A DNA stretch of 37,797 bases from a virus, in the IMG/VR virus record IMGVR_UViG_3300032562_000089, positions 1-37,797 of that record. One strand, given 5' to 3'. The notes under the pieces were generated by a model, which was not told the DNA's origin, did no database searches, and was given only the letters and a program-made list of their open reading frames with translations. A program made the translations under genes and the position numbers. The stretch's first letter is position 1; each line of letters opens with the position of its first letter. This document shows positions 17,578 through 37,399 of this stretch, piece after piece.

Positions 17578-17612
17578 GAAGCCCCGGACCAATGCCGGGG
17601 CTTCGTGTTTTC
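17578..17612. terminator. Terminator between convergent lysis and integrase genes
   Basis: A perfect 10-bp stem (GAAGCCCCGG / CCGGGGCTTC) with a 7-nt loop spans 17578-17604 and is followed by GTGTTTTC on the + strand. Late transcription from the left would end here before running antisense through the integrase gene. On the - strand it lacks a strong T-run, so it mainly serves the + direction. Confidence 0.85.
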
Positions 17613-23050: not shown

Positions 23051-24058
23051 TCACAACTCCACCGGATTGCCGTCGCGGAGGGTGTAGAAGGTGTCCGGCT
23101 TGATGCCGTCGCGGCCGACGACGCCGGCCCAAACGGCGACGATCTTCCAATCGTCGTCGCGCTCGACAAGAAAGAGCGCGCAGCCGTCGGCGCCGCTGGC
23201 ACGACCCTGATAGCCGGTGGCCGACGCCGCGCCCCGAGGGCCGGTGGCCGACGCCGCGCCCTGATAGCCGGTGGCCGACGCCGCGCCCTGATAGCCGGTG
23301 GCCGACGCCGCGCCCTGATAGCCGGTGGCCGACGCCGCGCCCTGAGGGCCGGTGGCCGATGCCGCGCCCTGATCGCCGGTGGCCGACGCCGCGCCCTGAG
23401 GGCCGGTGGCCGACGCCGCGCCCCGAGGGCCGGTGGCCGACGCCGCGCCCCGAGGGCCGGTGGCCGACGCCGCGCCCTGAGAGCCGGTGGCCGACGCCGC
23501 GCCCTGATAGCCGGTGGCCGACGCCGCGCCCTGATAGCCGGTGGCCGACGCCGCGCCCTGAGAGCCGGTGGCCGACGCCGCGCCCTGATCGCCGGTGGCC
23601 GACGCCGCGCCCTGAGGGCCGGTGGCCGACGCCGCGCCCTGATAGCCGGTGGCCGACGCGCCTTCCTCCGAGTGCGTGCGATCCATCACCCACTTGATCG
23701 CTCGCGCGACCAGATCGGGAATTCGCAATTCGGCCTTGATGGTGATCTGGCCGGCGGCAATCTTGGTATCGCCGTCATGGCGCGACAGATCGCCGGACAA
23801 TTCGACCTCGGCGAAACGGCTGAAAGCCGGCGCGTAGTAATCGAACACGTTGAGCGGGTGTTCGCAGGCGTGGAAGCCGGACTCGCATGCCTTGACCTCG
23901 CCAGTGTGCGCGTATGTTTTTCCAACCTCGAATTGGAATCCGCGACATCGGAGGTCTTTATCGAAGCCCTTGAAGGCAACGATTGCGGGTGCCGTTTCCG
24001 GCTGCGGGGCCGGTTCCGATTTGTCCGCCTTCGGTTTCGTTCTGCTTTTCACCGCCAT
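23051..24058 (-). CDS. DUF7666-type protein with 17 nonapeptide repeats (335 aa)
   Basis: Residues about 20-135 form the conserved domain ([56 protein letters not shown]). Then 17 near-identical nonapeptides ASATGxQGA follow, and the protein closes with [20 protein letters not shown] and [20 protein letters not shown]. This layout matches the family named DUF7666, common in Hyphomicrobiales and phages; its function is unknown. The repeats would form a regular beta-solenoid-like rod. The ATG at 24058 has GGGAGA upstream; a longer in-frame start lacks this. It is in the leftward early operon, so expressed early or in lysogens rather than with virion genes. Confidence 0.8.
23205..23663 (-). repeat. 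Tandem 27-bp repeat array, 17 units
   Basis: Seventeen 27-bp units encode ASATGxQGA. The x codon is always NNT and varies among TAT (Tyr), CCT (Pro), GAT (Asp) and TCT (Ser); the next codon is CAG or, in three units, CGG. All other bases are almost invariant. The frame is maintained, and array length can vary by slippage or recombination. Confidence 0.9.
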
Positions 24059-24086
24059 GATGGTCTCCCGTGCTGGTTGGAGAAAT

Positions 24087-24344
24087 TCACTCGCCACAAA
24101 TCATCGGCCGATTGTCGGTCGGGCAGATCGGAGCGCCGGCGGCGAGCCATTTGCGGGTGGTGCGCGCGACGTAGCCGCAGGCCGGACACTCGACCTTGAG
24201 CAGGCGTCCGGCGGCCTTGCGCTCGGGCTCGATCTCGCAATTGGCGACGATTTGGCGCAGGAGCGCGGAATCGCGTTGCGACTTGCGCGGCCGGATCAAG
24301 CCGGCCTCGGCGGCGAGCGCGAGGGTGCGGGCGTGCGCGTTCAT
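24087..24344 (-). CDS. Zinc-ribbon protein, SprT C-terminal-like (85 aa)
   Basis: The 85-aa protein ends with [20 protein letters not shown] and [12 protein letters not shown], a zinc ribbon (CPxC ... CPTDNRPM) like that at the C-terminus of SprT-type proteins, but without the HExxH protease domain. The helical N-terminus ([20 protein letters not shown]) is of unknown role. It starts inside the previous gene's stop (ATGA). Stand-alone ribbons of this kind occur in early regions of Hyphomicrobiales phages. A DNA- or RNA-binding accessory role is likely but not shown. Confidence 0.72.
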
Positions 24345-24738: not shown

Positions 24739-24766
24739 ATTGTAACCAAATCGGTCACAAAGGCAA
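24739..24766 (-). promoter_or_regulatory. Leftward early promoter (PL-like)
   Basis: On the - strand TTGCCT (24766-24761) and TACAAT (24744-24739) are 16 bp apart, a good sigma70-type promoter. Predicted transcript start is about 24732, leaving a 20-nt leader before ATG 24712. Operator 24742-24758 lies across the spacer and -10, so repressor binding would block it. Confidence 0.7.
24742..24758. promoter_or_regulatory. Operator OL1-like (GTAACCaaatcGGTCAC)
   Basis: A 17-bp dyad with 5 of 6 arm pairs and a 5-bp centre. It overlaps the spacer and -10 of the leftward promoter. One of five similar sites in this 640-bp region. Confidence 0.75.
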
Positions 24767-24784: not shown

Positions 24785-24801
24785 ATGACCGAAACGGTCA
24801 C
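24785..24801. promoter_or_regulatory. Operator OL2-like (TGACCGaaaCGGTCA)
   Basis: The best dyad of the set: 6+6 perfectly complementary bases around AAA. It lies 43 bp centre-to-centre from OL1 and upstream of the leftward promoter. Confidence 0.75.
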
Positions 24802-24816
24802 AGCGCGGAAAGCCGT

Positions 24817-24971: not shown

Positions 24972-25289
24972 CTAATGCCCCTTGGCGACCAGCCGGCGAA
25001 CGATATCGGCCGCCATGTCTTGGACGTCCTGCGCCTGGCCTTTCATGAGCGAATCGAGGCTCGGCTGGCTCGGAACGCGCCAGAGGTCGCCGGGCTCGAT
25101 TCCGAGCGCCTCAGCGTACGCGGCCTGTTTGTCCGGATTCACGCGCCGCGGCTCGCGCTCCCAACGATAGACCGATTCACGCTCGATCCCGAGCCGGCCG
25201 GCGACTTGTTCCGGCGATAGTCCGACGTACTCGCGCCATTCCTTGAGGAACAGCCGGCGGGCGACCGTTTTGTGGATGCGTGTAACCAT
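24972..25289 (-). CDS. CI-like repressor, XRE helix-turn-helix protein (105 aa)
   Basis: From ATG 25289 the protein is 105 aa with an XRE-type helix-turn-helix (about 22-60: YVGLSPEQVAGRLGIERESV, YRWEREPRRVNPDKQAAYAE). A C-terminal helix (LMKGQAQDVQDMAADIVRRL) could mediate dimerisation. An upstream start at 25325 would put coding sequence over the predicted promoter and an operator, so 25289 is preferred. A TATGAT -10 ends 6 nt before it, so the mRNA would be leaderless, as for lambda cI from PRM. Flanking operators suggest it shuts off the leftward and rightward promoters. There is no LexA-type autocleavage domain, so induction must work otherwise. Confidence 0.78.
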   Translation of the reverse strand: MVTRIHKTVARRLFLKEWREYVGLSPEQVAGRLGIERESVYRWEREPRRVNPDKQAAYAEALGIEPGDLWRVPSQPSLDSLMKGQAQDVQDMAADIVRRLVAKGH

Positions 25290-25298
25290 CTTGGTATC
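25282..25298. promoter_or_regulatory. Degenerate operator over the repressor start
   Basis: GTAACCatcttGGTATC keeps the left arm and GGT of the operator consensus. It covers the first codons of the repressor and its -10, and could give negative autoregulation. Weaker than the other five. Confidence 0.35.
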
Positions 25299-25325
25299 AT
25301 ACCCCGCGCGACGGCTTCCCGTCAT
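25296..25325 (-). promoter_or_regulatory. Repressor promoter (PRM-like)
   Basis: On the - strand TATGAT (25301-25296) with a weak ATGACG (25325-25320) 18 bp upstream. Transcription would start at about 25289, on the A of the repressor ATG. A weak -35 next to an operator at 25325-25341 is what an activator-assisted maintenance promoter looks like. Confidence 0.5.
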
Positions 25326-25348: not shown

Positions 25349-25377
25349 TTGACGGCCAGTGACCAAATCGGTTACAA
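25349..25377 (+). promoter_or_regulatory. Rightward regulator promoter (PR-like)
   Basis: TTGACG (25349-25354) and TTACAA (25372-25377) are 17 bp apart. The start point would be about 25384, the A of the Cro-like ATG, so this mRNA too would be leaderless. The operator at 25359-25375 fills the spacer. Confidence 0.6.
25359..25375. promoter_or_regulatory. Operator OR-like, Cro side (GTGACCaaatcGGTTAC)
   Basis: Arms GTGACC and GGTTAC pair 5 of 6 around AAATC, the same centre as OL1. It lies within the rightward promoter spacer. Confidence 0.75.
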
Positions 25378-25383
25378 GGCGGC

Positions 25384-25614
25384 ATGGCAAACGCCCATCC
25401 GCTCCGGACCTATCGTGATAGCCAGTCTCCGCGGCTCACCCAGGGAGAGCTTGCAAAGAAGCTGGGCGTGTCGCGCACGACCGTTGCCAGATGGGAAAGC
25501 GGGACGCGGCAGGTTGATCGGCAATTGGTGCGATCCGTCGCGGAGGTCACAAAACTGGCGCCGGCGACGCTGCGCCCGGACCTCGCAGAACTGTTTGAGC
25601 AGGCTGCCGCATGA
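25384..25614 (+). CDS. Cro-like helix-turn-helix regulator (76 aa)
   Basis: The 76-aa protein is almost entirely one XRE helix-turn-helix domain: LTQGELAKKLGVSRTTVARW (about 18-37), then ESGTRQVDRQLVRSVAEV. It is divergent from the repressor and separated by the operators, the classical Cro position. The predicted promoter starts transcription at the ATG itself. It would bind the same operators and favour lytic growth. It converges with the 81-aa gene on the other strand, with 5 nt between stops. Confidence 0.82.
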   Translation: MANAHPLRTYRDSQSPRLTQGELAKKLGVSRTTVARWESGTRQVDRQLVRSVAEVTKLAPATLRPDLAELFEQAAA

Positions 25615-26270: not shown

Positions 26271-26482
26271 CACCACCGCCACGAGCGGGCGGCCAATTCC
26301 GAACGATTTTTGTCGAACGAGTGCCGCGCCGGTCGCGCGGGAAACCTGATGACGTTGTCGACCTCGCGCCGCGCCAACGGTTCGTGGTCGATCGAGTGAA
26401 AGCCGGGAACGCAAGACCTATCCCGGCCCGGTAATTCGAGCAGTCGAGTCGCGACCTCCCCAATCGGTTGCCAGTCCTTCAT
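26270..26482 (-). CDS. Small protein divergent from the replication operon (70 aa)
   Basis: From ATG 26482 the product is MKDWQPIGEVATRLLELPGR, DRSCVPGFHSIDHEPLARRE, VDNVIRFPARPARHSFDKNR and SELAARSWRW. The sequence is protein-like and the stop overlaps the start of the interrupted frame. A longer in-frame start lies far upstream opposite the helix-turn-helix gene and is less likely. It stands back-to-back with the rightward operon. Family not recognised; a small regulator or host takeover protein is possible. Confidence 0.55.
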   Translation of the reverse strand: MKDWQPIGEVATRLLELPGRDRSCVPGFHSIDHEPLARREVDNVIRFPARPARHSFDKNRSELAARSWRW

Positions 26483-26543
26483 GGCAAGCAACATGGCAGG
26501 GGAGGTTGTCCAAGTGGGCACAAAGATTGACCGGAAACGGACA

Positions 26544-26912
26544 ATGAGCAGCGCAACCGCAGTCATGGACACCGCCAGGCGCGCCGCCAGCGCCCTGGTC
26601 GAGCGCGAGGAACGACGCACCCGCTCGCGCATGGCGGCATACGAGGCGGTCGCCGCGATGGTCGGCACCTCGGGCGCCTGGGTGCGCAAGTTCGTCAACG
26701 GCTACGCCGGGGCAAAGCCGGGTTTCGTCACCGGCTACAACATTCTGACGCTCTACGGCCGCCTGTGTGGGCGGATCGAGCGCGCCGCGGAAGACGAGCG
26801 CGCGATGGTCGTGGCGCTCAAGGGGCAGATCGATGCGGCTTTTCAAGGCGATCGTGAGTTGGTGGAAATGGCGGCGCGATCGGCGCCGGCTCGAAAGGAA
26901 GATGCGGAGTAG
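26544..26912 (+). CDS. Helix-turn-helix protein, first gene of the rightward early operon (122 aa)
   Basis: From ATG 26544 (GGAAACGG upstream) the 122-aa product has a basic helical start (TARRAASALVEREERRTRSR). A helix-turn-helix-like segment follows (AAYEAVAAMVGTSGAWVRKF about 31-50, then VNGYAGAKPGFVTGYNILTL) and an acidic tail. In-frame ATGs at 26481 and 26493 lie over the divergent gene and lack a good ribosome site. As the first gene before the DnaA-like and replication proteins it may regulate the operon or bind the origin. Similar proteins are found beside replication genes of Hyphomicrobiales phages. Confidence 0.7.
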   Translation: MSSATAVMDTARRAASALVEREERRTRSRMAAYEAVAAMVGTSGAWVRKFVNGYAGAKPGFVTGYNILTLYGRLCGRIERAAEDERAMVVALKGQIDAAFQGDRELVEMAARSAPARKEDAE

Positions 26913-26945: not shown

Positions 26946-27743
26946 ATGCTGATCGAGTACACCGCTCACGAATATGCGAGCGTCGCAGACATGCGACGGA
27001 ATTACGATGCAATCCGCACGCGATTCGCGAGCCCTCCGGTGCAACACGGAATCGAGCCCGAGCAGGCACCAAGCGAAACCGATCCTCCGGGGTCGGACGA
27101 AGGTCCGCCACCCGTCCCCGCGCTTGCTATCCGCGAAATCGTCGATGCCGTCTGTGTCGTCCTCGCGATGCCGCGCGACCAACTCCTGTCCGATATCACC
27201 TCGATTCGCGCGATCGACGGCCGGCGCATCGCCGCCGCCCTGATCGTCCGGCGGCTCTGCATCACGCGCCAGGTCGTCGCCGAGCACTTCGGGATTGTCG
27301 AGGGCGCGGTCTGTTCTGCCCTGACCCGCCTCGACCTGACGATGATCGCGAGGGCCATTCCGCGCAACGCCGATCTTCTCGCCACCGTGCGCGTGGTCGT
27401 CGAGGATTGGAACCTCGATCGGGGCGCGCGGCCGACGCTCACGGACATCAAGCGTGCGGTTTGCGCGGAATTCAAGGTGAGTGCGGTCGAGATAGAGTCA
27501 ATTCGCCGCGACAAGGAAATTGTCGCCGCGCGCATGGTCGCGATGGCAATCACCAAGCGCCTCACGTCTCGATCCTTTCCCTATATCGGCGAGCAATTCG
27601 GCGGCCGTGATCACACGACCGTACTGCACGCCTTCAAAAAAATGCGGCCATTCATCGCCGCCGCTGCGGCCGTCCTGCCGGATACCGCGACGGTCGACGA
27701 GTGGGCGCGAGCCGTCCGCAAGGCTTTGGAGGTCGAGGCGTGA
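26946..27743 (+). CDS. Protein with two DnaA domain IV-like segments, no AAA+ domain (265 aa)
   Basis: Residues 165-245 match DnaA domain IV: LTDIKRAVCAEFKVSAVEIE, MVAMAITKRLTSRSFPYIGE, and the DnaA signature GGRDHTTVLHAFKK at 219-232. Residues 61-130 look like a diverged second copy (IREIVDAVCVVLAMPRDQLL, RIAAALIVRRLCITRQVVAE, HFGIVEGAVCSALTRL) in which the signature is lost. There is no Walker A/B, so it cannot be a DnaA ATPase. It could bind DnaA boxes at the phage or host origin, as initiator helper or competitor. GAAGGGGAACG precedes the ATG; the end overlaps the HNH gene by 4 nt. Family assignment of the second copy is firm, of the first moderate. Confidence 0.8.
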   Translation: MLIEYTAHEYASVADMRRNYDAIRTRFASPPVQHGIEPEQAPSETDPPGSDEGPPPVPALAIREIVDAVCVVLAMPRDQLLSDITSIRAIDGRRIAAALIVRRLCITRQVVAEHFGIVEGAVCSALTRLDLTMIARAIPRNADLLATVRVVVEDWNLDRGARPTLTDIKRAVCAEFKVSAVEIESIRRDKEIVAARMVAMAITKRLTSRSFPYIGEQFGGRDHTTVLHAFKKMRPFIAAAAAVLPDTATVDEWARAVRKALEVEA

Positions 27744-28141
27744 GCGGCGATACCTGCATCATCCCGCTCGGGACGACTGGCGAATATGAGGCCGTTGTGA
27801 GCATCGAAGATTACGCCTTTCTCACGCAATGGCGCTGGAACATCAAAAAATCGACGTGGCAGTACGGCCGCAAGGTCTATGCGCGGCGAAACACCTGGGA
27901 GAACGGCCGGCGCGTGTCGATCTACATGCACAACGTCATCCTGCGGGATCGCATGGGTGCGCCGCAGCCGTCGCCGGATCACGAGGTCGATCACGCCGAC
28001 GTCGACAGCCTCAACAACACGCGCGGAAACCTGTCCTGGGCGACCAAGAGCGAGCAGAACGCCAACCAGCGCCAGCGCATCACCAAGGCTCAAACGGCCG
28101 CCTACGCGGTCGCCTCGGCCGCTGCGGAGGTGCCGTTTTGA
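27740..28141 (+). CDS. HNH endonuclease, HNH_3 type (133 aa)
   Basis: The core reads YMHNVILRDR, then DHEVDHADVDSLNNTRGNLS and WATKSEQNANQRQR, the HNH_3 pattern (H ... VDHxDxDxLNNxxxNL ... N) with His and Asn catalytic residues. The N-terminal part (ECxAVVSIEDYAFLTQWRW-like strands) is usual in phage HNH proteins of this size. Starts at GTG 27740, overlapping the previous stop; ends overlapping a TTG. It could be a homing-type nuclease or act in replication-linked nicking. Being embedded by exact 4-nt overlaps on both sides, it seems a domesticated operon member rather than a recent insertion. Confidence 0.82.
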   Translation: MSGDTCIIPLGTTGEYEAVVSIEDYAFLTQWRWNIKKSTWQYGRKVYARRNTWENGRRVSIYMHNVILRDRMGAPQPSPDHEVDHADVDSLNNTRGNLSWATKSEQNANQRQRITKAQTAAYAVASAAAEVPF

Positions 28142-28356
28142 AACTCTCACTGGCCCAACAGATCGAGGAAGTCGCCCGCGAGCTTGGTTTGCGCAAACAG
28201 GTCTATCCGCGCCTGGTCTCGACCGGGAAGATGCGCCAGTCGGTCGCCGACTATCACACGGCGCGGATGCGCGCCGCGCTTGCCACGCTCGAATGGCTGC
28301 AAAAGAACGAAGCCAGGATCAAGGCTGCGCTCGGTGAAGTCCATGAGCAAGCCTAG
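28138..28356 (+). CDS. Small helical protein (72 aa), TTG start
   Basis: TTG at 28138 overlaps the HNH stop (TTGA). The product is MKLSLAQQIEEVARELGLRK, QVYPRLVSTGKMRQSVADYH then TARMRAALATLEWLQKNEAR, three helices. The RKQVYPRLVxxGKxxxxxADYHxxRMxAALxTLEWL pattern is known from many phage early regions without a function. There is no in-frame ATG before the conserved part, supporting the rare start. It overlaps the next gene by 14 nt. Confidence 0.75.
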   Translation: MKLSLAQQIEEVARELGLRKQVYPRLVSTGKMRQSVADYHTARMRAALATLEWLQKNEARIKAALGEVHEQA

Positions 28357-28573
28357 CCTGCAAGCCCAGGCGCTCGCGGTCGAGCGCGCCTTTGTCAACC
28401 GTCGGGACTTTGCCGCCGGGCTGCGCTCGCTCGTCCTCAAGGGCAAGCGGCCGGCGGACGAGCTCGCCCGGGTCGAACAGCACTTGCACGACCTCGGGCC
28501 GGCGGTCGCCACCATGAAATGGCTGGCGCTCAACGAGGAAGTGATCCGCGCCGCGGTCGAGGGTGGCGAATGA
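28343..28573 (+). CDS. Small helical protein (76 aa)
   Basis: ATG at 28343 lies inside the previous gene and gives MSKPSLQAQALAVERAFVNR, RDFAAGLRSLVLKGKRPADE and LARVEQHLHDLGPAVATMKW, an all-helical 76-aa product. The C-terminal TMKWLxLNExxIRAAV segment resembles the TLEWLxKNEARIKAAL end of the preceding 72-aa protein, so the two small neighbours may be related by duplication or interact. The stop overlaps the methyltransferase ATG (ATGA). Function unknown. Confidence 0.7.
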   Translation: MSKPSLQAQALAVERAFVNRRDFAAGLRSLVLKGKRPADELARVEQHLHDLGPAVATMKWLALNEEVIRAAVEGGE

Positions 28574-29154
28574 AGCGGGTTTCGGCTCACTGGTGGAAGC
28601 GCGCGGACGGCGATCACTACGTCGAGCCGTCGTGGTGCAGCGCCCGGCTGTTCGACGAGGAAGAATTTATCGGCACCATTCAGGATCCGGCCTGCGGGTT
28701 CGGGACGATTGTCAAGTCGGCGGTGGCCGCCGGCCATGCGGCCTTCGGGACCGATATTGCCGACCGAGGCTTTGCCGGCCAGCGCCGGACCGGCGATTTC
28801 CTTGAGCAACGGAGCCGGGTCGCCAACGTCGTCACGAATGCGCCGTTCAACGTGGCCCGCCAATTCGCCCTGCACGCGCTCGAATTGGCGACCGGGAAAG
28901 TGGCGATGATATTCCCTACCGCGCGTTTAAACGCAGCGCATTGGATCGCCGGCACGCCACTGCGGCGGATCTGGCTGTTGTCGCCGCGCCCGTCCATGCC
29001 GCCCGGCCATGTCATCGCCTCGGGCGGAAAGGTCGGCGGCGGCAAGATGGATTTCTGCTGGCTGGTCTGGGAGCGCGGATATCGCGGCCTGCCGGACCTC
29101 GCATGGCTCTACCGGGACCCCCCCCTTGTACGGCTGTCGAAGGGTAGAGCGTGA
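28570..29154 (+). CDS. DNA N6-adenine methyltransferase-like protein (194 aa)
   Basis: The 194-aa protein has SAM-binding motif I DPACGFGTIV (39-48) and a motif-II-like acidic TDIADRG. The catalytic position has TNAPF (89-93) where the family consensus is (D/N)PP(Y/F); the first Pro is Ala. Such single-domain proteins occur in phage early regions and may protect DNA or regulate replication. The altered motif IV could lower activity or shift specificity. ATG overlaps the upstream stop. A run of eight C (29118-29125) near the 3' end is a possible slippage site. One GTTTAAAC site lies in the gene. Confidence 0.72.
   Translation: MKRVSAHWWKRADGDHYVEPSWCSARLFDEEEFIGTIQDPACGFGTIVKSAVAAGHAAFGTDIADRGFAGQRRTGDFLEQRSRVANVVTNAPFNVARQFALHALELATGKVAMIFPTARLNAAHWIAGTPLRRIWLLSPRPSMPPGHVIASGGKVGGGKMDFCWLVWERGYRGLPDLAWLYRDPPLVRLSKGRA
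28925..28932. repeat. GTTTAAAC site 4 (GCGTTTAAACGC)
   Basis: A 12-bp palindrome in the adenine methyltransferase-like gene, coding ARLNA with CGT-TTA-AAC-GC, identical over 11 bp to sites 2 and 3 on their coding strands. Confidence 0.55.
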
Positions 29155-29804
29155 TGGCGGGAACCATGCGAGTGCTGATCGCCTGCGAGTTTTCCGGGGT
29201 CGTGCGCCGCGCATTTGCTGCGCGCGGACACGACGCCTGGTCGTGCGATCTGCTTCCCTCCGAGGATCGCAGCAACAAGCACATCATTGGCGACGCGCGC
29301 AACCTGTTGAATGACGGGTGGGATCTGCTGATCGTCGCGCACCCGCCATGCACGCGGTTGTGCAAGTCGGGCCTGCGCTGGCTCCATGCGCCGCCGAAGG
29401 GCCTCACCCTCGATTCAATGTGGCGCGACCTCGACGACGCCGCAGCCTTGTTCTCGGCATTCTGGAATGCGCCGATCGAGCGGGTGGCGGTCGAGAACCC
29501 GTTGATGCACCGGCATGCGCAACAGCGCATCGTCAACTGGCGGCCTCCATCCCAGACGGTGCAGCCATGGCTGTTCGGGCACGGCGAAACCAAGGCAATC
29601 TGTCTGTGGCTGCGGAACCTGCCGGTGCTGGTACCGACGAACGTCGTCGATGGCCGTTCCGAGCGCGTGCATCGCGCTACCGGATGGGGGAGGCACGCCG
29701 CGACTCGGTGGCGCGAGCGGTCGCGATTTTTCCCCGGCATCGCCGAAGCAATGGCGGATCAGTGGGGAGATATCGGAGAGACGGCGGGAGAGGCGGTAGC
29801 ATGA
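29154..29804 (+). CDS. Cytosine DNA methyltransferase-like protein (about 216 aa)
   Basis: The product contains VLIACEFSGVVRRAFAARGH (SAM-binding start), SCDLLPSE, then VAHPPCTRLCKSGLRW with the PPC catalytic Cys, and VAVENPLMH (ENx motif). These are the landmarks of short phage proteins related to C5-cytosine methyltransferases. It is short and I see no target recognition domain, so specificity and activity are uncertain. ATG 29154 shares its A with the previous stop; GTG 29151 and ATG 29166 are alternatives, and family members often start at the latter. It overlaps the O-like gene by 4 nt. The pair of methylases suggests defence evasion or DNA marking. Confidence 0.72.
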   Translation: MAGTMRVLIACEFSGVVRRAFAARGHDAWSCDLLPSEDRSNKHIIGDARNLLNDGWDLLIVAHPPCTRLCKSGLRWLHAPPKGLTLDSMWRDLDDAAALFSAFWNAPIERVAVENPLMHRHAQQRIVNWRPPSQTVQPWLFGHGETKAICLWLRNLPVLVPTNVVDGRSERVHRATGWGRHAATRWRERSRFFPGIAEAMADQWGDIGETAGEAVA

Positions 29805-30658
29805 GCCGGTGGTGGCGAGCCTATGACGAGGCGGTCGACGATCCCAAGCTCTGCCTGCTGTCCGATCGGCAGCACCGGGCATGGTTCAATCTGTGCTGCA
29901 TCACCTCGCAGAATGGCGGCGTCCTGCCATCGATAGACGCGATAGCGTTTAAACTTAGGATGACGCCGGCGAAGGCGCAGGCGTTGATTGTCGAGCTTCG
30001 CGCCGCCGGACTGATCGACGAGGCCGGGGGTGACCTCGCGCCTCACAATTGGCGCGGTCGGCAGTTTCAGTCGGATGGATCAACCGAAAGGGTGAAACGT
30101 TTCAGGGAACAACAACGAAACGTTTCACTGGCCGTTGCTGAAACGGCCCCAGATACAGATACAGAGACAGATTCAGAACAGAAAGAAAGAGTAGGGGCGG
30201 TCGCTCCCGCGACGCGCCCGGACGTCGCCGGTGAATTTGAAAAGTTCTGGACGGAGTACCCGCACCGCGGCACGGCCGCCAACCCAAGCAAGCCGGCTTT
30301 CGAGAAATTCGGCCGGCTGCTCAAGGCTGGCGTCGATCCCGCGGCGATCATCGCCGGCGCGCGGCGGTTTTGCGAAATCGAGCGCGCGGCCGGGCGGTAC
30401 GGCACCGACAAGGTCGCCCAGGCTATCACTTGGCTAAACCAAGAGCGGTTCAACGATTACGGCGAGCCGGCGGCGGCGCCTGCTGCCGTTGGCGGTTACT
30501 ACGCCAAGGCGGAATCCGAGCAACTTCATGCATGGGACGCGCACGCCAAATCCGAGCGCGGACGCAGTTTGCCGCGCGATCGGGACGGCGGGTGGTGGGT
30601 CGAGCAGGAATGGCCGCCGGGCTACGTTCCGGGCGCCCAATTGAGCGTCGTCGCATGA
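29801..30658 (+). CDS. Replication protein, O/DnaD-like (285 aa)
   Basis: The N-terminal 95 residues form a winged-helix-like domain (RWWRAYDEAVDDPKLCLLSD, RQHRAWFNLCCITSQNGGVL, KAQALIVELRAAGLID). The middle is a low-complexity acidic linker (PDTDTETDSEQKER). The C-terminal domain (FEKFWTEYPHRGTAAN, KPAFEKFGRLLKAGVDPAAI, ITWLNQERFNDYG) matches the typical end of phage replication initiators with the W-Y-P pattern. It probably binds origin iterons within its own gene and loads the host helicase. The linker coincides with the candidate iterons at the DNA level. Flanked by 4-nt overlaps both sides. Confidence 0.78.
   Translation: MSRWWRAYDEAVDDPKLCLLSDRQHRAWFNLCCITSQNGGVLPSIDAIAFKLRMTPAKAQALIVELRAAGLIDEAGGDLAPHNWRGRQFQSDGSTERVKRFREQQRNVSLAVAETAPDTDTETDSEQKERVGAVAPATRPDVAGEFEKFWTEYPHRGTAANPSKPAFEKFGRLLKAGVDPAAIIAGARRFCEIERAAGRYGTDKVAQAITWLNQERFNDYGEPAAAPAAVGGYYAKAESEQLHAWDAHAKSERGRSLPRDRDGGWWVEQEWPPGYVPGAQLSVVA
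29947..29954. repeat. GTTTAAAC site 5 (GCGTTTAAAC)
   Basis: Located near the start of the O-like gene, 140 bp before the candidate iterons. Reads AFKL in the protein frame, a different frame from the RLNA copies. Confidence 0.5.
30091..30191. other. Candidate phage replication origin: three 23-bp iterons plus AT/purine-rich tract
   Basis: GAAACGTTTC (a 10-bp palindrome) occurs at 30094-30103 and 30117-30126, and GAAACG again at 30140-30145. Centres are exactly 23 bp apart (30098.5, 30121.5, 30144.5). Immediately downstream, 30151-30191 is a purine-rich, AT-richer tract of AGATAC/AGAGAC-like hexamers. Iterons followed by an AT-rich region within the O gene is the architecture of lambda ori, and the tract would be the melting element. 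Confidence 0.6.
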
Positions 30659-31191
30659 ACACGCCGGCGGTGGCCGATCGGGCGCAGCTCGCATGGTTCG
30701 TGGTCTGCACGAACATCAATTGCGAGGTCCGCGCCAAGGGCGGCCTGGAGGCGCTTGGTTACACCGTGTTCCTGCCGATGCAGCAGAAATGGAAGCGGCG
30801 CACGGCGAGGGGAACGCGCAAGCCGGAGCGGGTCGAGCGGCCGCTTTTCAGCCGATACCTGTTCGTCGGGCTCGGCGCCGGCCAGTGCTGGTATCCGATC
30901 CGCCGCACGGATGGCGTCGAGTCGATCCTGTGCGCCGATGGCGAGCCTCAACGAGTGCCGGACGCCGAGATAGCGCGCTTCATGGCCGCCGAGCGCACCG
31001 GTCTGTTCGATTACACCCGCGAATGTCTGTTCCGGGTTGGCGACCATGTGCATGTCGACGGCGGCCCGTTCGGCGACTTTGCCGCCGAGGTGTCGCGATC
31101 GGATGATGGTAAGCGTGTGGAAATCTTGCACAACTTCCTCGGAACGCTGCGCCGGACGCATGTCGATATCGCTCGCGTGACTCGCGCGTGA
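30655..31191 (+). CDS. NusG-like transcription antiterminator (178 aa)
   Basis: The N-terminal NGN domain (about 12-115) begins LAWFVVCTNINCEVRAKGGL and includes KPERVERPLFSRYLFVGLGA, the NusG/RfaH-type pattern. A KOW domain closes the protein: FRVGDHVHVDGGPFGDFAAE (126-145) and RVEILHNFLGTLRRTHVDIA. NusG paralogues ride on RNA polymerase and suppress termination. As the last gene of the early operon, directly before the late genes, it takes the place of lambda Q, so it may switch on late transcription through the terminators. The ATG overlaps the O-like stop by 4 nt. Recognition element (ops-like) not identified. Confidence 0.85.
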   Translation: MNTPAVADRAQLAWFVVCTNINCEVRAKGGLEALGYTVFLPMQQKWKRRTARGTRKPERVERPLFSRYLFVGLGAGQCWYPIRRTDGVESILCADGEPQRVPDAEIARFMAAERTGLFDYTRECLFRVGDHVHVDGGPFGDFAAEVSRSDDGKRVEILHNFLGTLRRTHVDIARVTRA

Positions 31192-31284
31192 TATCCGGGT
31201 GGCTACTGATTCGTTCGCCCGCCCCGGCAGAGCAAAAGCCGCCCACCTGCGGAGCTATGTCAAAATTTAGGGCTTGGGGACGCT

Positions 31285-31488
31285 ATGTCGGACGATCTGA
31301 AGTCATTCTCGGAAAAATGTCCAATGGCGGCGCGCATGTTGCGCGACCTGATGACGGCCGATCGTTTGGAAACCGTTGATTGGCCTCTGATCGACAAGAG
31401 TCTTTGTGATGTAATTTTCAAGAAAGCGCGCGCCGGTTGCGATGTTTGGCGGAACGCGGCGGAAAGCCGCTGGCCGAAAAGACAGTAA
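31285..31488 (+). CDS. Small protein of the pre-terminase region (67 aa)
   Basis: A 67-aa product, MSDDLKSFSEKCPMAARMLR, then DLMTADRLETVDWPLIDKSL and CDVIFKKARAGCDVWRNAAE. Lower GC than the surroundings. Starts at ATG 31285 with TTGGGGA upstream, 93 nt after the NusG-like gene. The family is unknown. It is followed at 5 nt by the zinc/HNH-like gene, so the two are probably co-expressed at the start of the late region. Confidence 0.55.
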   Translation: MSDDLKSFSEKCPMAARMLRDLMTADRLETVDWPLIDKSLCDVIFKKARAGCDVWRNAAESRWPKRQ

Positions 31489-31493
31489 AGGGT

Positions 31494-31700
31494 ATGCTTT
31501 ATTACGAAAAGAACCCCGGCAAGAAGGATGCGCATCTTGCGGTGAGGGGCGCAAAGGAAAATGGAACACTGATTCCTGACTGTTGTGCTCACTGCGGCAG
31601 CGATCGGAACATTCACGCACATCATGAGGACTATTCGAAGCCCTTAGACGTCGTGTGGCTTTGTGCAAGTTGCCACGGAAAAGTGACAAGGGCGGCGTAA
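31494..31700 (+). CDS. Short HNH/zinc-finger-like protein (68 aa)
   Basis: The product has CAHCGSDRNIHAHHEDYSKP followed by LDVVWLCASCHGKV. This gives CxxC, an HxHHxDY centre and CxxCH, a compact HNH-type ββα-metal site common in small phage proteins near terminase genes. ATG at 31494 is chosen because the conserved part begins soon after; a TTG at 31437 is possible. It might be the small HNH partner of terminase or a nuclease. At 68 aa it is shorter than usual HNH enzymes. The following 205 bp have no clear gene. Confidence 0.7.
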   Translation: MLYYEKNPGKKDAHLAVRGAKENGTLIPDCCAHCGSDRNIHAHHEDYSKPLDVVWLCASCHGKVTRAA

Positions 31701-31905
31701 TTTCCAGTTCTGGCGTGGTCGATCTCCCACGGCGACCGGCGGCGTCGGAGAAAAAAGGGCAGTCGGGGCGGTACCGCGCAACGGGCTTCGGTCCGTGTTC
31801 ATTGCCGCCAGTGCTCACACCGCCGGGCAATTCGCAATGACGCGGTCGTTTAGCCTGCTGGTCGAGATTGGCGCCGACGCTCCGCTGCCAACGCAAGAGG
31901 CTCGC

Positions 31906-32217
31906 ATGTCTGCTCCCGTCATCCGCGGCTTGGCCGCAACCATCCGCGCCGCCGTCGGCGACCTGACCGCGCTGGCGACGCAGGCCGCCGCCGAACTTTC
32001 GACCGAGGTTGAGGGCTTTAAGTCCGACGTGGTTGACGTTCAGGCCGTGACCGCAGACGTGAGGGCGGCCCGGGCCGAGGTCCGCGCCGCGCTCGGGCAG
32101 GGCACCAACGGAGGCCCCGCGCTCGACCCTTTGGCCTCCACGCCCGCCGCATCGGACACTCCCTCCGCACCTGGCTTTCCGGACGGCCGAGTCCTGACCC
32201 CCATTGGCGTCCGCTAG
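31906..32217 (+). CDS. Alanine-rich coiled protein (103 aa)
   Basis: From ATG 31906, preceded by AAGAGG, the product is MSAPVIRGLAATIRAAVGDL, TALATQAAAELSTEVEGFKS, a heptad-like segment (DVQAVTADVRAARAEVRAAL), and a proline-rich tail ending DGRVLTPIGVR. An in-frame ATG at 31837 has no ribosome site. The helical body with a disordered tail suggests a minor structural or tail-related protein, but nothing specific is recognised. Confidence 0.6.
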   Translation: MSAPVIRGLAATIRAAVGDLTALATQAAAELSTEVEGFKSDVVDVQAVTADVRAARAEVRAALGQGTNGGPALDPLASTPAASDTPSAPGFPDGRVLTPIGVR

Positions 32218-32223
32218 GAATCG

Positions 32224-32291
32224 GCCCGCGTCCCGCGTGAACTGCCATCGCCCAACGGTAGACCTCAGGCATCGTTCCGGGCGACGCGGGC
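32224..32291 (+). other. Structured leader upstream of the packaging genes
   Basis: GCCCGCGTC (32224-32232) and GACGCGGGC (32283-32291) are perfectly complementary over 9 bp. Inside, GAAC/GTTC (32239-32242 and 32274-32277) and GCC/GGC (32244-32246 and 32268-32270) extend the stem with internal loops. It lies in a 107-nt non-coding gap before the 68-aa gene. It could be an RNA element or a packaging-related DNA dyad. No T-tract follows, so it is not a simple terminator. Confidence 0.4.
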
Positions 32292-32324
32292 TGTAAACTT
32301 TCGACCACACCCAAGGGATTGACC

Positions 32325-32531
32325 ATGGCAACGCTCGGCTCGCTCGCCCGCAAGCAGATGGCCAAGAAAGTTTTTGGCCTCCCCGGGCAGCGCAAGTACC
32401 CAATCCCCGACGCCAGCCACGCCGCCAACGCCAAAGCGCGTGCAACGCAGCAATTCGAAAATGGCAACCTATCCGCAGCCCAGCGCGCCGAGATCGACCG
32501 CAAGGCCAATGCCAAGATGGGCCGGAAATGA
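32325..32531 (+). CDS. Small basic phage protein (68 aa)
   Basis: MATLGSLARKQMAKKVFGLP, GQRKYPIPDASHAANAKARA and TQQFENGNLSAAQRAEIDRK form a 68-aa basic, helical product. The motif FGLPxxRKYPIPDxSHAxNAKARAxQ is widespread in small proteins just upstream of terminase or structural genes in phages of many hosts; its role is unknown. The ATG at 32325 is preceded by AAGGGATT, and a TTG six bases earlier is in frame. It overlaps the next gene by 4 nt. Confidence 0.78.
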   Translation: MATLGSLARKQMAKKVFGLPGQRKYPIPDASHAANAKARATQQFENGNLSAAQRAEIDRKANAKMGRK

Positions 32532-32752
32532 GCAAGACCCCCGCCGAACTCCGGGCCTACAAGGCCATGGCTCAGGGATGGTGCGCCGACTTCGCCGGGG
32601 GCCTCATCGTCCAGCCCAGCCATATGGCCCACCTATGGGGCGCGGTATCGACCCTCGCCTCCGAACTGGCCGACCTCTCCGAACGCATGGAGACGGCCGA
32701 AAACCGACGCGTTGGTCGTCCCCCCAAGAACCGAGACGACACACACGGATAA
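32528..32752 (+). CDS. Small protein (74 aa)
   Basis: MSKTPAELRAYKAMAQGWCA, DFAGGLIVQPSHMAHLWGAV and STLASELADLSERMETAENR form a helical 74-aa product with a basic tail RRVGRPPKNRDD that resembles an AT-hook (GRPPK). The ATG overlaps the upstream stop. Given its place two genes before terminase, a DNA-binding accessory role in packaging is conceivable but not shown. Confidence 0.62.
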   Translation: MSKTPAELRAYKAMAQGWCADFAGGLIVQPSHMAHLWGAVSTLASELADLSERMETAENRRVGRPPKNRDDTHG

Positions 32753-32794
32753 CCCAAGCAGCTGGCGCTTCGGTGCCGGCCCGGAGGTGGAGTT

Positions 32795-33091
32795 ATGGCC
32801 CACGGGGGAACGCGCGCAGGCGCAGGCCGGAAATCAAAGGAAAAGCACCTAAGCCCGCGCGTAATTGACCAAATGAGGGCTAAAATCAAGTCAAGCGCCA
32901 TCATTCGGCGGCTAAGTGCTTGTGCTGTCGGGGAAATTGAAATGACAGCGCCGCAAGTCCATGCGGCGCGCATCCTTCTCGGGAAGATCCTCCCCGATCT
33001 GTCTTCCGTCACGGTGAGCGGGGATTCCGAATCTCCTCTCGTCACGCTGATTGTGCGCGAAATTGTCCGACCTCCGCATAAAGACGGCTGA
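32795..33091 (+). CDS. Terminase small subunit-like protein (98 aa)
   Basis: The 98-aa product opens MAHGGTRAGAGRKSKEKHLS, the GGxRxGAGRK signature of many small terminase subunits, then a helical DNA-binding region (VIDQMRAKIKSSAIIRRLSA, PQVHAARILLGKILPDLS). It binds the packaging site and recruits the large subunit. GGAGG precedes ATG 32795 at proper distance. The 3' end overlaps the large terminase start by 41 nt. It is shorter than P22 gp3 (162 aa). Confidence 0.82.
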   Translation: MAHGGTRAGAGRKSKEKHLSPRVIDQMRAKIKSSAIIRRLSACAVGEIEMTAPQVHAARILLGKILPDLSSVTVSGDSESPLVTLIVREIVRPPHKDG

Positions 33092-34352
33092 GGTATTCGC
33101 GCCGCTCCTCGATCCGGCCAGGTACAAGGGCGCGCACGGCGGACGCGGATCCGGCAAGTCGCACTTCTTCGGGGAGTTACTAGTCGAGGAGTGCATTCGG
33201 GTTCCTGGAACCCGGGCCGTCTGCATTCGCGAATACCAAAAGTCACTGGCTCAGTCGTCCAAGCACCTGATCGAGAGCAAGATCAAGGAAATGGGCCTTG
33301 GATCGGCGTTCGGGGTCAAGTCCGATCTGATCTCGACGCCTGGTAATGGCGTGATCCTGTTCCAGGGCATGCAGGACCACACAGCGGAGACGATCAAGAG
33401 CCTGGAAGGTTGCCGGATCGCGTGGATCGAGGAGGCGCAGACCCTCAGCGCCCGCAGCCTGACGATGCTTCGCCCGACCATCCGCCTGGACGGATCGGAG
33501 ATTTGGGCAAGCTGGAACCCGACCAGGAAGGCCGACGCGGTTGACGAGTTCTTGCGGCAGAAGCGCCCGTCCGGGGCCATCGTCGTCCCGGCCAACTGGC
33601 GCGACAACCCGTGGTTTCCGGAAGTCCTCGAACAGGAGCGCCAGGACGATCAGCGGCTTTACCCGGAGCGATACGATCACATCTGGGAAGGAGACTACGC
33701 CAAGGCATTCGAGGGCGCCTACTTCGCCCGGCAACTGTCTGAGGCGAGAGCACAGAACCGGATCGGGGTGGTTACGGCCGATCCTCTACTGCCCGTCAAA
33801 GCGTTCTTCGACCTTGGGGGCTCCGGGGCTCGTGCTGACGCCATGGCGATCTGGATATGCCAATTCGCCGGCCAGCAAATCCTGGTGTTGGATTACATCG
33901 AAGGCGTGGGGCAGGTTCTCGACTACTACGCCAACGAACTGCGGTCACGCGGATGGGGCAAAGCAGTCCTCTACCTGCCGCACGATGGCGTGGCGAGCAA
34001 CAGCGTTACCGGCAAGCGATATTGGGAGCACTGGCGCGACGCCGGGTTTGACGTAGAGCCGCCCGTTACGAACCAAGGGCAGGGCGCCGCATCGATGCGG
34101 ATTGAGGCGGTGCGCCGCATCTTCCCGCGCTGCTGGTTCAACGCGGCGACGACTGAGGCCGGGCGCGATGCGCTCGGCTACTACCACGAGCGAAAAGACG
34201 AGACGCGCAACGTGGGACTAGGCCCCGACCATGATTGGTCGTCGCATGGTTCGGACGCATTTGGCCTGATGGCGATTGTCTGGGAAGCGCCGAAGGTCAA
34301 GGTGCCGTCTCCGCGCATCCGCCCACGGGGGCAAGGCTGGGCGTATGGCTGA
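33051..34352 (+). CDS. Terminase large subunit (433 aa)
   Basis: Residues 30-37 hold Walker A GGRGSGKS, 123-130 Walker B IAWIEEAQ, and WASWNPT (152-158) the coupling motif. The nuclease domain has AFFDLGG with Asp254, LDYIEG with Asp281 and DHDWSSHGSDAFG near the C-terminus. This is the ATP-driven motor and headful nuclease of DNA packaging. No ATG is available: TTG at 33051 or 33063 must be used, overlapping the small subunit. RIKTAEVFAPLLDPARYKG before the P-loop is typical of the family, which confirms that the start lies about here. Confidence 0.93.
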   Translation: MCAKLSDLRIKTAEVFAPLLDPARYKGAHGGRGSGKSHFFGELLVEECIRVPGTRAVCIREYQKSLAQSSKHLIESKIKEMGLGSAFGVKSDLISTPGNGVILFQGMQDHTAETIKSLEGCRIAWIEEAQTLSARSLTMLRPTIRLDGSEIWASWNPTRKADAVDEFLRQKRPSGAIVVPANWRDNPWFPEVLEQERQDDQRLYPERYDHIWEGDYAKAFEGAYFARQLSEARAQNRIGVVTADPLLPVKAFFDLGGSGARADAMAIWICQFAGQQILVLDYIEGVGQVLDYYANELRSRGWGKAVLYLPHDGVASNSVTGKRYWEHWRDAGFDVEPPVTNQGQGAASMRIEAVRRIFPRCWFNAATTEAGRDALGYYHERKDETRNVGLGPDHDWSSHGSDAFGLMAIVWEAPKVKVPSPRIRPRGQGWAYG

Positions 34353-34476
34353 CCTCGAATATTGGCGGCGCAATCGCGAGCAACTTTACAAGTGGCTGGC
34401 GCGCCGCGTCCTTGAAGGCGATCACGCCGCGCAAACCGCGCTCTTTCGTGAGCCGGCAACGATCATATGGTCCTAA
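34345..34476 (+). CDS. Small protein between terminase and portal (43 aa)
   Basis: A 43-aa frame beginning at ATG 34345 inside the terminase end: MADLEYWRRNREQLYKWLAR, RVLEGDHAAQTALFREPATI. Its stop abuts the portal ATG (34477) with no gap. Basic-aromatic helical composition and exact packing favour a real gene. Role unknown; a short linker peptide in packaging or translational coupling for portal is possible. Confidence 0.6.
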   Translation: MADLEYWRRNREQLYKWLARRVLEGDHAAQTALFREPATIIWS

Positions 34477-36987
34477 ATGTCTGAGAACGAAGGCGGCCGG
34501 ATCAAGCGGGCGGCGCGGCGCGTCGGACGCTATCTGACCAAGGCGCCGTTGCCCGACAAGCCGAAGGCCGCGCCGAAGTCCATCGATGACGATTTCACGC
34601 GCGAGGCCAACGAACGCGCCATGCTGGCCTACGACCACGAGCGACAGAACATCCTCGACGCCTACGAGGATCTGGAGTTCCGGGGCGGCGATCAGTGGCC
34701 GTCCTATGCCCGGCAGGCCCGCGAGGCGCAGCGCCGGCCCCTGTTCACGTTCAACAGGATGCCGCAGTTCATCCGGCAGGTGACGGGCGATATCCGCCTG
34801 ATGCGGCCGGCGATCAAGGTCGTGCCTATCGATTCCAAAGCCTCGGATGGGATCGGCAAGATCATGACCGGCATGATCCGGTACGTGGAAAACCGGAGCG
34901 AGGCAAAATTCGCCTACGGTCGCGGCGCCGACAATCAGGTGATCTGCGGGATTGGCGCCTGGCGCGTGGCGGCGGAATATGCCGAATCCACGACGTTCAA
35001 CCAGGAGCTACGGATCGTCGCTATCAACGATCCGGTGTCGGTCCTGTTTGATCCCGACGCGATCCTGCCGACCCGCGAGGACGCGCATTGGTGCTTTGTC
35101 CCGATTGACATGAGCCGCAAGCGGTTCGAGGAGAAATGGCCCGACGTTCCGGTGTCCGAGTTCACGTCCTATGACCGGCGGTTCGGGGACTTCTGGTACG
35201 GGTCTGACTTCATCCGGATCGCTGAATACTGGGAAAAGCGCCCGATCAAGCGCACGCTGGCGCTGTTCGATGATGGGTCAGTCGTTGACCTGACGGACAA
35301 GGATCCGGAGGAGGAGGACGACGCTGAGGCCAAGGGTGCCCGGGTCGAGGAGCGCGACGGATACGAGGTCTATCGTTCCCTGATCACGCTGGCGCATGTC
35401 TTGGAGCCGGCCGAGAAGTGGCCGGGCCGATACATCCCCATCGTCCCGGTGCTTGGCGAGGAAGTATCGATCGGCCGCAAGACGCTGCGCCATGGCATCA
35501 TCCGCTTCGCCAAGGACGGCCAGCGCGCTTACAACTTCGCCCGCACGACGCAAGTCGAGGTTATGGCGCTCCAGCCAAAGGCCCCGTTCCTCGGGACACA
35601 GAAGAATTTCGAAGACAACCCGGACGATTGGGCGGCGGCGAACGAAGAAGCCTTGCCGTACCTGACCTATGTCCCCGACCAGTTGAACGGGGGCGCGCCG
35701 CCGCAGCGTCAGCCGCCGCCGATAAACTCGCCGGCCCTGTCCGAACAGGTCGCCTTGGCTGACAACGACATGAAGGCGACCACGGGCATTTACGACGCCT
35801 CGCTCGGCGCCCGGTCGAATGAGACCTCAGGCGTGGCGATCAAGGCCCGCCAGCAAGAGGGCGATGTCGGCACCGTCGCCTACGTGGAGAATTTCAACCT
35901 CGCGGTGCGCCACACCGGCCGCATCCTCGTCGATCTGATGCCGCACATCTACGACAGCGAGCGCCAAATCCAGGTGCTTGGCGAAGACGGCAAGATCGAT
36001 AGCCTGTGGATCAACAAGGCCGAGTTCTCCGGAGAATTGGGCGATGAACCGGAGGAGCCTATCGAGGTCGGCGCCGAGAAGGACGACGACGATTCGATAT
36101 CCCCGGAGGGCGTTTCGCAGCATATGCCGTCGTCGCAGGACGAAGGCAGTATCGGGTTCGGGCGCGGAGACGATGGGATTGACATTGACAACGCCCCGGT
36201 CGGGAGCGGCGGAGATCTGGAGACGGACGATGACGCCTGCAACATCGATGACGCCTCCCGGCGCATCCTCAACGACGTGACGGTCGGCGCCTACGATGTC
36301 GCGATGGAGAACGGCCCGAGCTACACGACCAAACGAGAGGCCGCGCTCGACGGCATGTCGCAGTTGATCCAGGGGGCGCCGCAAGTCGCCCCGCTGATCC
36401 TCGATCTGTACGCCAAGGCGCAGGATTGGCCGCTGGCGGACGAAATTGGCAAGCGCCTAGAAGCCGTGTTGCCGCCGCCCATTCAGGCGCTCATTGCGCG
36501 CGAGAAGATACCGCCGGGCGAGATCGGCCCGGATGGACAGCCGATGCCCGGCATGGGTCATGGCGGGCCTCCCGGGGCTCCTCCGGGCGCGCCTGGAATG
36601 CCTCCCGGTCCTCCCGGAGCCCCGCCGCCTGGAATGCCGATGCCGCCTCCTGGCCCTGGCCCTGGCGCTCCTATGCCGCCTCCGGGCGTCGTCGCATCCG
36701 ACCAGGCCAAGGCCGCCAAGGCGCAAGCCGACGTTGAAATGTCGAAGATCAATCTGGAGCTAAAGAAGCTCGATCTGGTTTCGAAGCAGCACGACGTAGC
36801 GATGCAGCACGCCGATGCGCAGGGCGGCAACCTCGCCCATAGCAAGGTCATTACCGATCTGGTCCACGAGGTCGCCTACCTGCGGGGCGCGATTGACGAG
36901 ATGCTAGAGGGCATGGGCAAGCCGCCTATTCCCCAGGAAGTGACGGCGGCCGAGCACGAGGCGCCGCAAGAGGGATTAGCTCAATGA
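34477..36987 (+). CDS. Portal protein, P22-type, with Pro/Gly-rich C-terminal extension (836 aa)
   Basis: The 836-aa product carries the P22 portal pattern: HERQNILDAYEDLEFRGGDQ, FTFNRMPQFIRQVTGDIRLM, GRGADNQVICGIGAWRVAAE and, later, LGARSNETSGVAIKARQQEG. P22 gp1 is 725 aa. An acidic stretch lies at about 530-590. A proline/glycine-rich stretch (about 690-745, GMGHGGPPGAPPGAPGMPPG and similar) precedes a final coiled coil (KINLELKKLDLVSKQHDVAM), which may form the barrel of the P22 portal. It is the dodecameric entry for DNA and nucleates the head. It starts right at the 43-aa stop and overlaps the next gene by 4 nt. Confidence 0.9.
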   Translation: MSENEGGRIKRAARRVGRYLTKAPLPDKPKAAPKSIDDDFTREANERAMLAYDHERQNILDAYEDLEFRGGDQWPSYARQAREAQRRPLFTFNRMPQFIRQVTGDIRLMRPAIKVVPIDSKASDGIGKIMTGMIRYVENRSEAKFAYGRGADNQVICGIGAWRVAAEYAESTTFNQELRIVAINDPVSVLFDPDAILPTREDAHWCFVPIDMSRKRFEEKWPDVPVSEFTSYDRRFGDFWYGSDFIRIAEYWEKRPIKRTLALFDDGSVVDLTDKDPEEEDDAEAKGARVEERDGYEVYRSLITLAHVLEPAEKWPGRYIPIVPVLGEEVSIGRKTLRHGIIRFAKDGQRAYNFARTTQVEVMALQPKAPFLGTQKNFEDNPDDWAAANEEALPYLTYVPDQLNGGAPPQRQPPPINSPALSEQVALADNDMKATTGIYDASLGARSNETSGVAIKARQQEGDVGTVAYVENFNLAVRHTGRILVDLMPHIYDSERQIQVLGEDGKIDSLWINKAEFSGELGDEPEEPIEVGAEKDDDDSISPEGVSQHMPSSQDEGSIGFGRGDDGIDIDNAPVGSGGDLETDDDACNIDDASRRILNDVTVGAYDVAMENGPSYTTKREAALDGMSQLIQGAPQVAPLILDLYAKAQDWPLADEIGKRLEAVLPPPIQALIAREKIPPGEIGPDGQPMPGMGHGGPPGAPPGAPGMPPGPPGAPPPGMPMPPPGPGPGAPMPPPGVVASDQAKAAKAQADVEMSKINLELKKLDLVSKQHDVAMQHADAQGGNLAHSKVITDLVHEVAYLRGAIDEMLEGMGKPPIPQEVTAAEHEAPQEGLAQ

Positions 36988-37316
36988 CGACACCGACGAT
37001 CCTGCTCCTGACTGCGACCATTCCCGCGAGCGGCACCGTATCGAGCGCCGTCGCGGTGAATAAGGGGCAGAAGTTCATCGGGATACAAATGCCGACCGCG
37101 TTCACGGGAACGGCTGTGACGATCAAAAACTCCGTGGACGGAACGACGTTCCAGACCGTTTACGATCCCGTCGCGGGCGCCGACCTTTCCTATAAGGCGG
37201 CGGCGAGCAAGTTCGTCAAAATCCCCCTGACCGATCAGGGGAGCTACAACAGCATCCAGATCGTTTCGAATGCCACAGAGGCGGCGGCGCGAAAGCTGAC
37301 CCTGGCATTCGTCTAG
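36984..37316 (+). CDS. Beta-rich virion-region protein (110 aa)
   Basis: A 110-aa beta-rich product (LLLTATIPASGTVSSAVAVN, KGQKFIGIQMPTAFTGTAVT, SVDGTTFQTVYDPVAGADLS, ends RKLTLAFV) without cysteines. It is translationally coupled to portal and located before scaffold, where phages often encode decoration or head-completion proteins. The pattern of a compact beta-sandwich fits a decoration protein or a lectin-like surface domain. Specific homology is not recognised. A terminator follows. Confidence 0.65.
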   Translation: MTTPTILLLTATIPASGTVSSAVAVNKGQKFIGIQMPTAFTGTAVTIKNSVDGTTFQTVYDPVAGADLSYKAAASKFVKIPLTDQGSYNSIQIVSNATEAAARKLTLAFV

Positions 37317-37363
37317 TTTCGTCTGACGCTGGCCGCATGACGTGGCCGGCGCGGCGATTGTAC

Positions 37364-37386
37364 AGGCCCCTTCGGGGGCCTTTTTC
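37364..37386 (+). terminator. UUCG-loop terminator before the scaffold gene
   Basis: AGGCCCC and GGGGCCT form a 7-bp stem closed by a C(UUCG)G tetraloop and followed by TTTTTC. A very stable hairpin; the scaffold start is 14 nt after it. Late antitermination would be needed to read through. Confidence 0.85.
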
Positions 37387-37399
37387 ATGAGGACGACCG

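Follow-up and report, generated by a model that had tools for sequence, protein, structure and literature searches.

The window analyzed here is a whole viral record of 37,797 bases (IMG/VR IMGVR_UViG_3300032562_000089). Judged from its ORF content it looks like the genome of a temperate phage, because a serine-recombinase-like ORF, divergent CI-type and Cro-type regulators and a terminase are found among its ORFs:

17611-19260, minus strand: serine-recombinase-like ORF (from reading of the sequence)
24972-25325, minus strand: CI-type repressor (HTH_31/HTH_3 domain matches)
25384-25614, plus strand: Cro-type HTH regulator, divergent from the repressor (domain match)
26481-26912, plus strand: gene for a small HTH-like protein, upstream in the operon (homolog in locus L002, E 2.4e-22)
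26946-27743, plus strand: tandem DnaA-domain-IV protein, 265 aa, termed P0001 below (ORF, PF08299, profile comparison, full-length relative)
29801-30658, plus strand: O-like replication initiation protein (phrog_270, 2.5e-23)
30655-31191, plus strand: NusG-like phage antiterminator at the end of the early operon (PF02357, 2.4e-18; phrog_6386, 5.9e-27)
33051-34352: terminase

The genes run from the leftward repressor through the rightward Cro-type gene, the small HTH gene and P0001 to replication, an order resembling the lambdoid cI-cro-cII-O arrangement. The original prediction had placed P0001 at the head of a replication operon with an O-like initiator; the operon and its initiator are indeed present, but P0001 is the second gene, with 26481-26912 coming first. 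The repressor and Cro-type genes are flanked by three copies of the near-palindromic GTRACCAAATCGGTYACAA (24742-24760, 24785-24803 and 25359-25377), which from their sequence and placement are likely to be immunity operators of the repressor/Cro-like type and not DnaA boxes. The terminase closely resembles its counterpart in Bradyrhizobium phage ppBeUSDA76-2 (E 1e-197), and hence a Bradyrhizobium-like host is likely; in the same phage a homolog of the 26481-26912 product is also encoded upstream of a single-unit domain-IV gene. Positions 28000-37797 gave no megablast match to known phages. Elsewhere in the window, 23051-24097 (minus strand) encodes a 348-aa protein with many copies of the 9-residue repeat SATGxQGAA.

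The P0001 reading frame was recovered at the coordinates first proposed, its codon-position GC (0.68/0.48/0.77) is typical of coding sequence, and a relative in another phage aligns over residues 8-265 with 35% identity. The protein can be divided as follows, all on the plus strand:

26982-27026, residues 13-27: N-terminal helix, followed by a disordered Pro-rich linker (AlphaFold2 secondary structure, with low pLDDT here; alignments)
27117-27353, residues 58-136: N unit, a degenerate DnaA domain IV (profiles, AlphaFold2, fold matches)
27375-27410, residues 144-155: linker helix between the units (AlphaFold2 model)
27432-27674, residues 163-243: C unit, a canonical DnaA domain IV (PF08299, phmmer, invariant columns)
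27693-27737, residues 250-264: C-terminal helix (AlphaFold2 model, alignments)

As had been predicted, there is no ATPase: Pfam finds no match to the AAA+ motor (domain III, PF00308) in P0001, and none to DnaA domain I, through which DnaA interacts with the helicase and with itself. In the AlphaFold2 model residues 1-57 consist of one main helix and a disordered linker, and residues 58-155 adopt a domain-IV fold instead. The order and lengths of the helices agree between the halves (N unit: 58-73, 77-82, 87-104, 108-115 and 119-135; C unit: 165-176, 180-184, 190-207, 211-217 and 223-243); the comparison is one of helices within each half, the whole model having a pTM of 0.47. A short Arg-rich helix like the N-terminal one of P0001 also precedes the domain in single-unit phage relatives. 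The C-terminal helix is likewise common to some single-unit relatives, and its Trp is invariant in all five tandem proteins known to us (P0001 and the four listed below).

The C unit is readily recognized. Residues 167-232 match Bac_DnaA_C (PF08299) with an E-value of 2.1e-25 and 88.9 bits against a cut-off of 31.5; phmmer aligns the unit with E. coli domain IV of the structure 1J1V at 3.5e-15; and the whole-protein model superimposes on 1J1V across residues 163-263 with a Z-score of 12.9. It carries both the SIRR basic loop and the GGRDHTTVLHA signature, bearing out the canonical domain IV that had been noticed at about residues 165-245. E. coli DnaA contacts the bases of the DnaA box through R399, P423, D433, H434, T435 and H439 (PMC7561715). 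All six have equivalents in the C unit (R188, P212, D222, H223, T224 and H228), and all six are kept in the C units of five out of five tandem proteins. Among relatives, the conservation of D433, H434 and T435 is partly a matter of ascertainment, as the search patterns contained these residues; none of the patterns covered R399, and its equivalent is Arg in 99 of the 108 AAA-less domain-IV units from the fetched loci.

The N unit lies much further from known sequences. Pfam gives no match for residues 1-155 of P0001, and phmmer connects residues 61-127 with the domain IV of Thermotoga maritima DnaA at a marginal E-value of 0.073. An HMM built from four N-halves scores domain-IV units in other phage proteins higher than any unrelated ORF. 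The profile of five N-halves aligns in hhalign with a profile of 67 single domain-IV units, none of them taken from a tandem protein (94.6%, E 1.4e-8), with a score of 46.0; no score above 11.2 arose when the columns were shuffled 199 times. Moreover, Pfam itself detects PF08299 in the N-half of the tandem protein from locus L008 (2.0e-6; 23.6 bits, below the family cut-off), and finds two stretches of the family each in the L008 and L088 proteins (P0009 and P0011). Folded alone with AlphaFold2, the N-half reaches a pLDDT of 95.4 and a pTM of 0.87. Among PDB entries, Foldseek places DnaA domain IV first for this model, at probability 1.00 and TM 0.62 but with an E-value of only 0.012. Compared with 1J1V the model gives a VIA Z of 9.7 (rmsd 4.0 over 87 residues), the next fold being TrpR at 6.1; TrpR and domain IV share the TrpR-like superfamily. 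One might argue that the likeness is superficial and that the N half holds a helical HTH domain of unrelated origin, given the Pfam silence on this half in P0001 itself and the fact that TFIIB/cyclin-fold and TrpR proteins also match it with Z of about 5-6. This explanation is already contradicted by a profile-profile score far above the shuffles, by the Pfam matches on the N-halves of two relatives and by the clear lead of DnaA domain IV over every other fold, and we give it next to no weight. Thus, with separate profile searches of the two halves (Pfam for the C half, profile-profile comparison for the N half) and structure prediction in agreement, the proposal of a second, diverged domain IV lacking the signature at residues 61-130 is upheld, and P0001 is confirmed as a motor-less DnaA relative built from two domain-IV units.

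The N unit has kept the fold but none of the six box-contact residues: in P0001 the aligned residues are T, Q, V, E, G and S, with a one-residue gap in the recognition-helix region making single positions uncertain there, whereas the equivalent of R407 is retained (the R in GRR). The idea that the pair reads two DnaA boxes is therefore not sustained. The GGRDHTT signature is also missing from the N units of the other four tandem proteins, and hardly any residue is strictly conserved among N units, those of the other tandem phages being 18-34% identical to that of P0001. In a phylogenetic tree the N-halves form one clade (support 0.90) with long branches, and the C units of the tandem proteins are scattered among single-unit proteins; we take this to mean that the tandem form arose once and that its C unit has been changing slowly. 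The loss of every contact residue, the near lack of strict conservation and the rarity of tandem beside single-unit forms could also mean that the N unit is a decaying, functionless duplicate and that the C unit alone matters. We regard this as quite improbable, since the fold has been kept in five phages despite such low identity, together with the reading frame, the length and the constant domain boundaries with their linker.

Four other viral contigs encode proteins that align across both halves:

L007, 1057-1884: tandem relative
L008, 3848-4678: tandem relative
L036, 2669-3457: tandem relative
L088, 2797-3615: tandem relative

L007 and L088 also encode homologs of the NusG-like antiterminator close to their tandem genes. 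Motor-less domain-IV proteins at large occur widely among viral contigs (P0001 has 417 relatives there, with DnaA-type proteins counted in), and alphaproteobacterial phages commonly carry single-unit versions, beside which the tandem forms are rare. Of the 120 distinct domain-IV units in the fetched loci, 108 lack a P-loop motif earlier in their ORF. The other 12 have one, and some of these resemble complete DnaA. One such case, on a viral contig (L113, 2053-3552, plus strand), is an apparent full-length DnaA of 500 aa with domain I, P-loop and domain IV; reduced versions of DnaA were seen at other loci (L017, L042 and, in L005, the plasmid protein P0007).

On the bacterial side, extra domain-IV copies appear from domain matches to be frequent in the family that includes Rhodopseudomonas, with at least two matches in 87 of 146 genomes, as tallied by hand. 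Exact peptide patterns for close relatives of P0001 found none in viral or genome contigs. An alignment scan of the genome contigs gave no protein spanning both units among the matches listed, and these matches fit chromosomal DnaA. When 397 genomes from the order to which Rhodopseudomonas belongs were searched with the N-unit model, no tandem protein appeared among the best 12 candidates per genome. Nor did we find a description of a tandem domain-IV protein in the open-access literature.

To locate potential target sites, we counted DnaA boxes with the consensus pattern, bearing in mind that domain IV can read sites differing from the consensus. TTATNCACA is absent from the whole window, and a single one-mismatch site lies far away at 36005, against 2.6 expected. 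Across 45 whole viral records carrying domain-IV proteins it occurs 17 times, compared with 18 for the reversed pattern, with at most two per record and none in 30 of the 45. The 595 kb surrounding 80 related genes contain 7 boxes against 3.8 expected, and these are not concentrated near the gene. The counts from the window, the 45 records and the 595 kb thus speak against DnaA boxes as phage operators or as a phage origin; accordingly, the earlier suggestions that P0001 recruits host factors to DnaA boxes of a phage origin or regulates at DnaA-box operators in the phage are both unlikely. Exact TTATCCACA is mildly in excess, accounting for 11 of the 17 matches in the 45 records, mostly within structural genes except for two at repressor 5' ends. 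In these two cases, from the tandem phage of L008 and the single-unit phage of L069, the 5' end of a CI-type repressor gene carries the perfect DnaA box GGCARGTTATCCACATG (position 1501 of L249 and L250).

The main rival to the function that we favor below makes P0001 an early regulator of transcription, positioned as CII is in lambda, with both units binding phage DNA and the N unit reading a new sequence, so that a bipartite operator would serve the repressor or early promoters. The lambdoid gene order, the N units that are still HTH-like and differ between phages, and the repressor-gene boxes of L008 and L069 speak for such a regulator. Against it, the operon in the window has no nearby DnaA box and relatives show no enrichment near the gene; the L008/L069 box overlaps a conserved peptide and is missing from the rest of the roughly nine clear repressor homologs; and the three repeats described above resemble operators of the repressor/Cro type. 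On balance such a regulator seems less likely than not. A different role, as an accessory that recognizes the phage origin or recruits helicase there in concert with the O-like initiator, would accord with the shared operon (initiator at 29801-30658) and with 25 related loci in which O-like genes neighbor the domain-IV gene. We consider it improbable, as no DnaA-box cluster or other iterated sites were seen in the early region of the window, a box is missing from 30 of the 45 phage records with such proteins, and a dedicated initiator is already present.

An intact reader without consensus sites in its own genome suggests that its sites lie in trans, most likely on the host chromosome; the counts above concern the window, the 45 viral records and the 595 kb around related genes. 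Our favored reading of the sequence, tentatively held and somewhat short of an even chance, is that P0001 is an early protein acting on host DnaA boxes, at oriC or at DnaA-controlled promoters, and that its N unit serves as an accessory interface. P0001 would be made from the early operon of a temperate alphaproteobacterial phage, and its C unit would occupy boxes on the host chromosome. Lacking the motor, box-bound P0001 would neither undergo motor-driven oligomerization nor bind ATP nor load the helicase; as it could not build an initiation complex, it would instead compete with DnaA at oriC, one of the options originally proposed, or alter DnaA-controlled transcription. Host initiation would thereby be held back or DnaA-controlled transcription altered, while the phage would replicate via its own O-like initiator. 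The N unit, having lost box reading but kept the fold, would most likely provide an additional DNA contact of other specificity, a dimerization surface or a contact with a host protein. Host-box binding, the effect on the host and the N-unit role are all points that we infer. A stronger version, which we hold with less conviction, is a phage-encoded dominant-negative DnaA, in which the C-side box reader would be combined with an N unit re-specialized to read another sequence or hold a partner, so that one small protein would either shut off host initiation or link host oriC to something else.

There is precedent for such an outcome: lambda P and the prophage protein YfdR act against DnaA at oriC (PMC4776307). 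They bind DnaA itself, whereas P0001 would bind DnaA sites; the likeness is one of proposed outcome only, namely lower DnaA activity at oriC while the phage grows, and no homology is claimed. Similarly, phiCbK-like phages carry homologs of GcrA proposed to alter the replicative state of the host (PMC3556154). Mobile elements have also used Bac_DnaA_C outside DnaA in the REP-associated transposases of subclass 2.1, for which a changed target or targeting to the replication fork was suggested by the authors (PMC6006769); there a single unit is fused to a HuH nuclease, unlike in P0001. The closest counterparts are the single-unit phage proteins (e.g., WAX24401.1 of ppBeUSDA76-2 and QIG70462.1 of Rhizobium phage RHph_N28_2), which resemble P0001 in being motor-less, in the short N-terminal helix and Pro-rich linker before the domain and in their early-region location, but have one unit only; we found no functional study of them in the open-access literature. 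Relative to the domain IV of DnaA (PF08299; 1J1V), the C unit of P0001 is alike in sequence, signature, the six contacts and predicted fold, and the N unit in fold and remote homology; P0001 differs in having two copies per chain, one of them stripped of its contact residues, with neither motor nor domain I.

DnaA is known with a single motor joined to a single DNA reader. Reader-only proteins are numerous in alphaproteobacterial phages, and in P0001 the reader has been doubled and one copy changed. The five tandem proteins offer a natural series on how domain IV changes specificity. If the intact reader acts on host sites, it would give the phage a direct route to compete at oriC and would furnish a tool for separating box occupancy from DnaA oligomerization. 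The 397-genome search with the N-unit model also returned one fusion of GcrA and domain IV, a 189-aa protein in an apparent Mu-like prophage (L371, G279:C1:2418345-2433566; L337, 1402-1971, minus strand). It joins a GcrA-like N-terminal HTH (PF07750, 1.9e-7) to a diverged DnaA domain IV (PF08299, 7.4e-11) whose recognition helix is changed, and thus combines two alphaproteobacterial cell-cycle DNA readers in a single phage protein.
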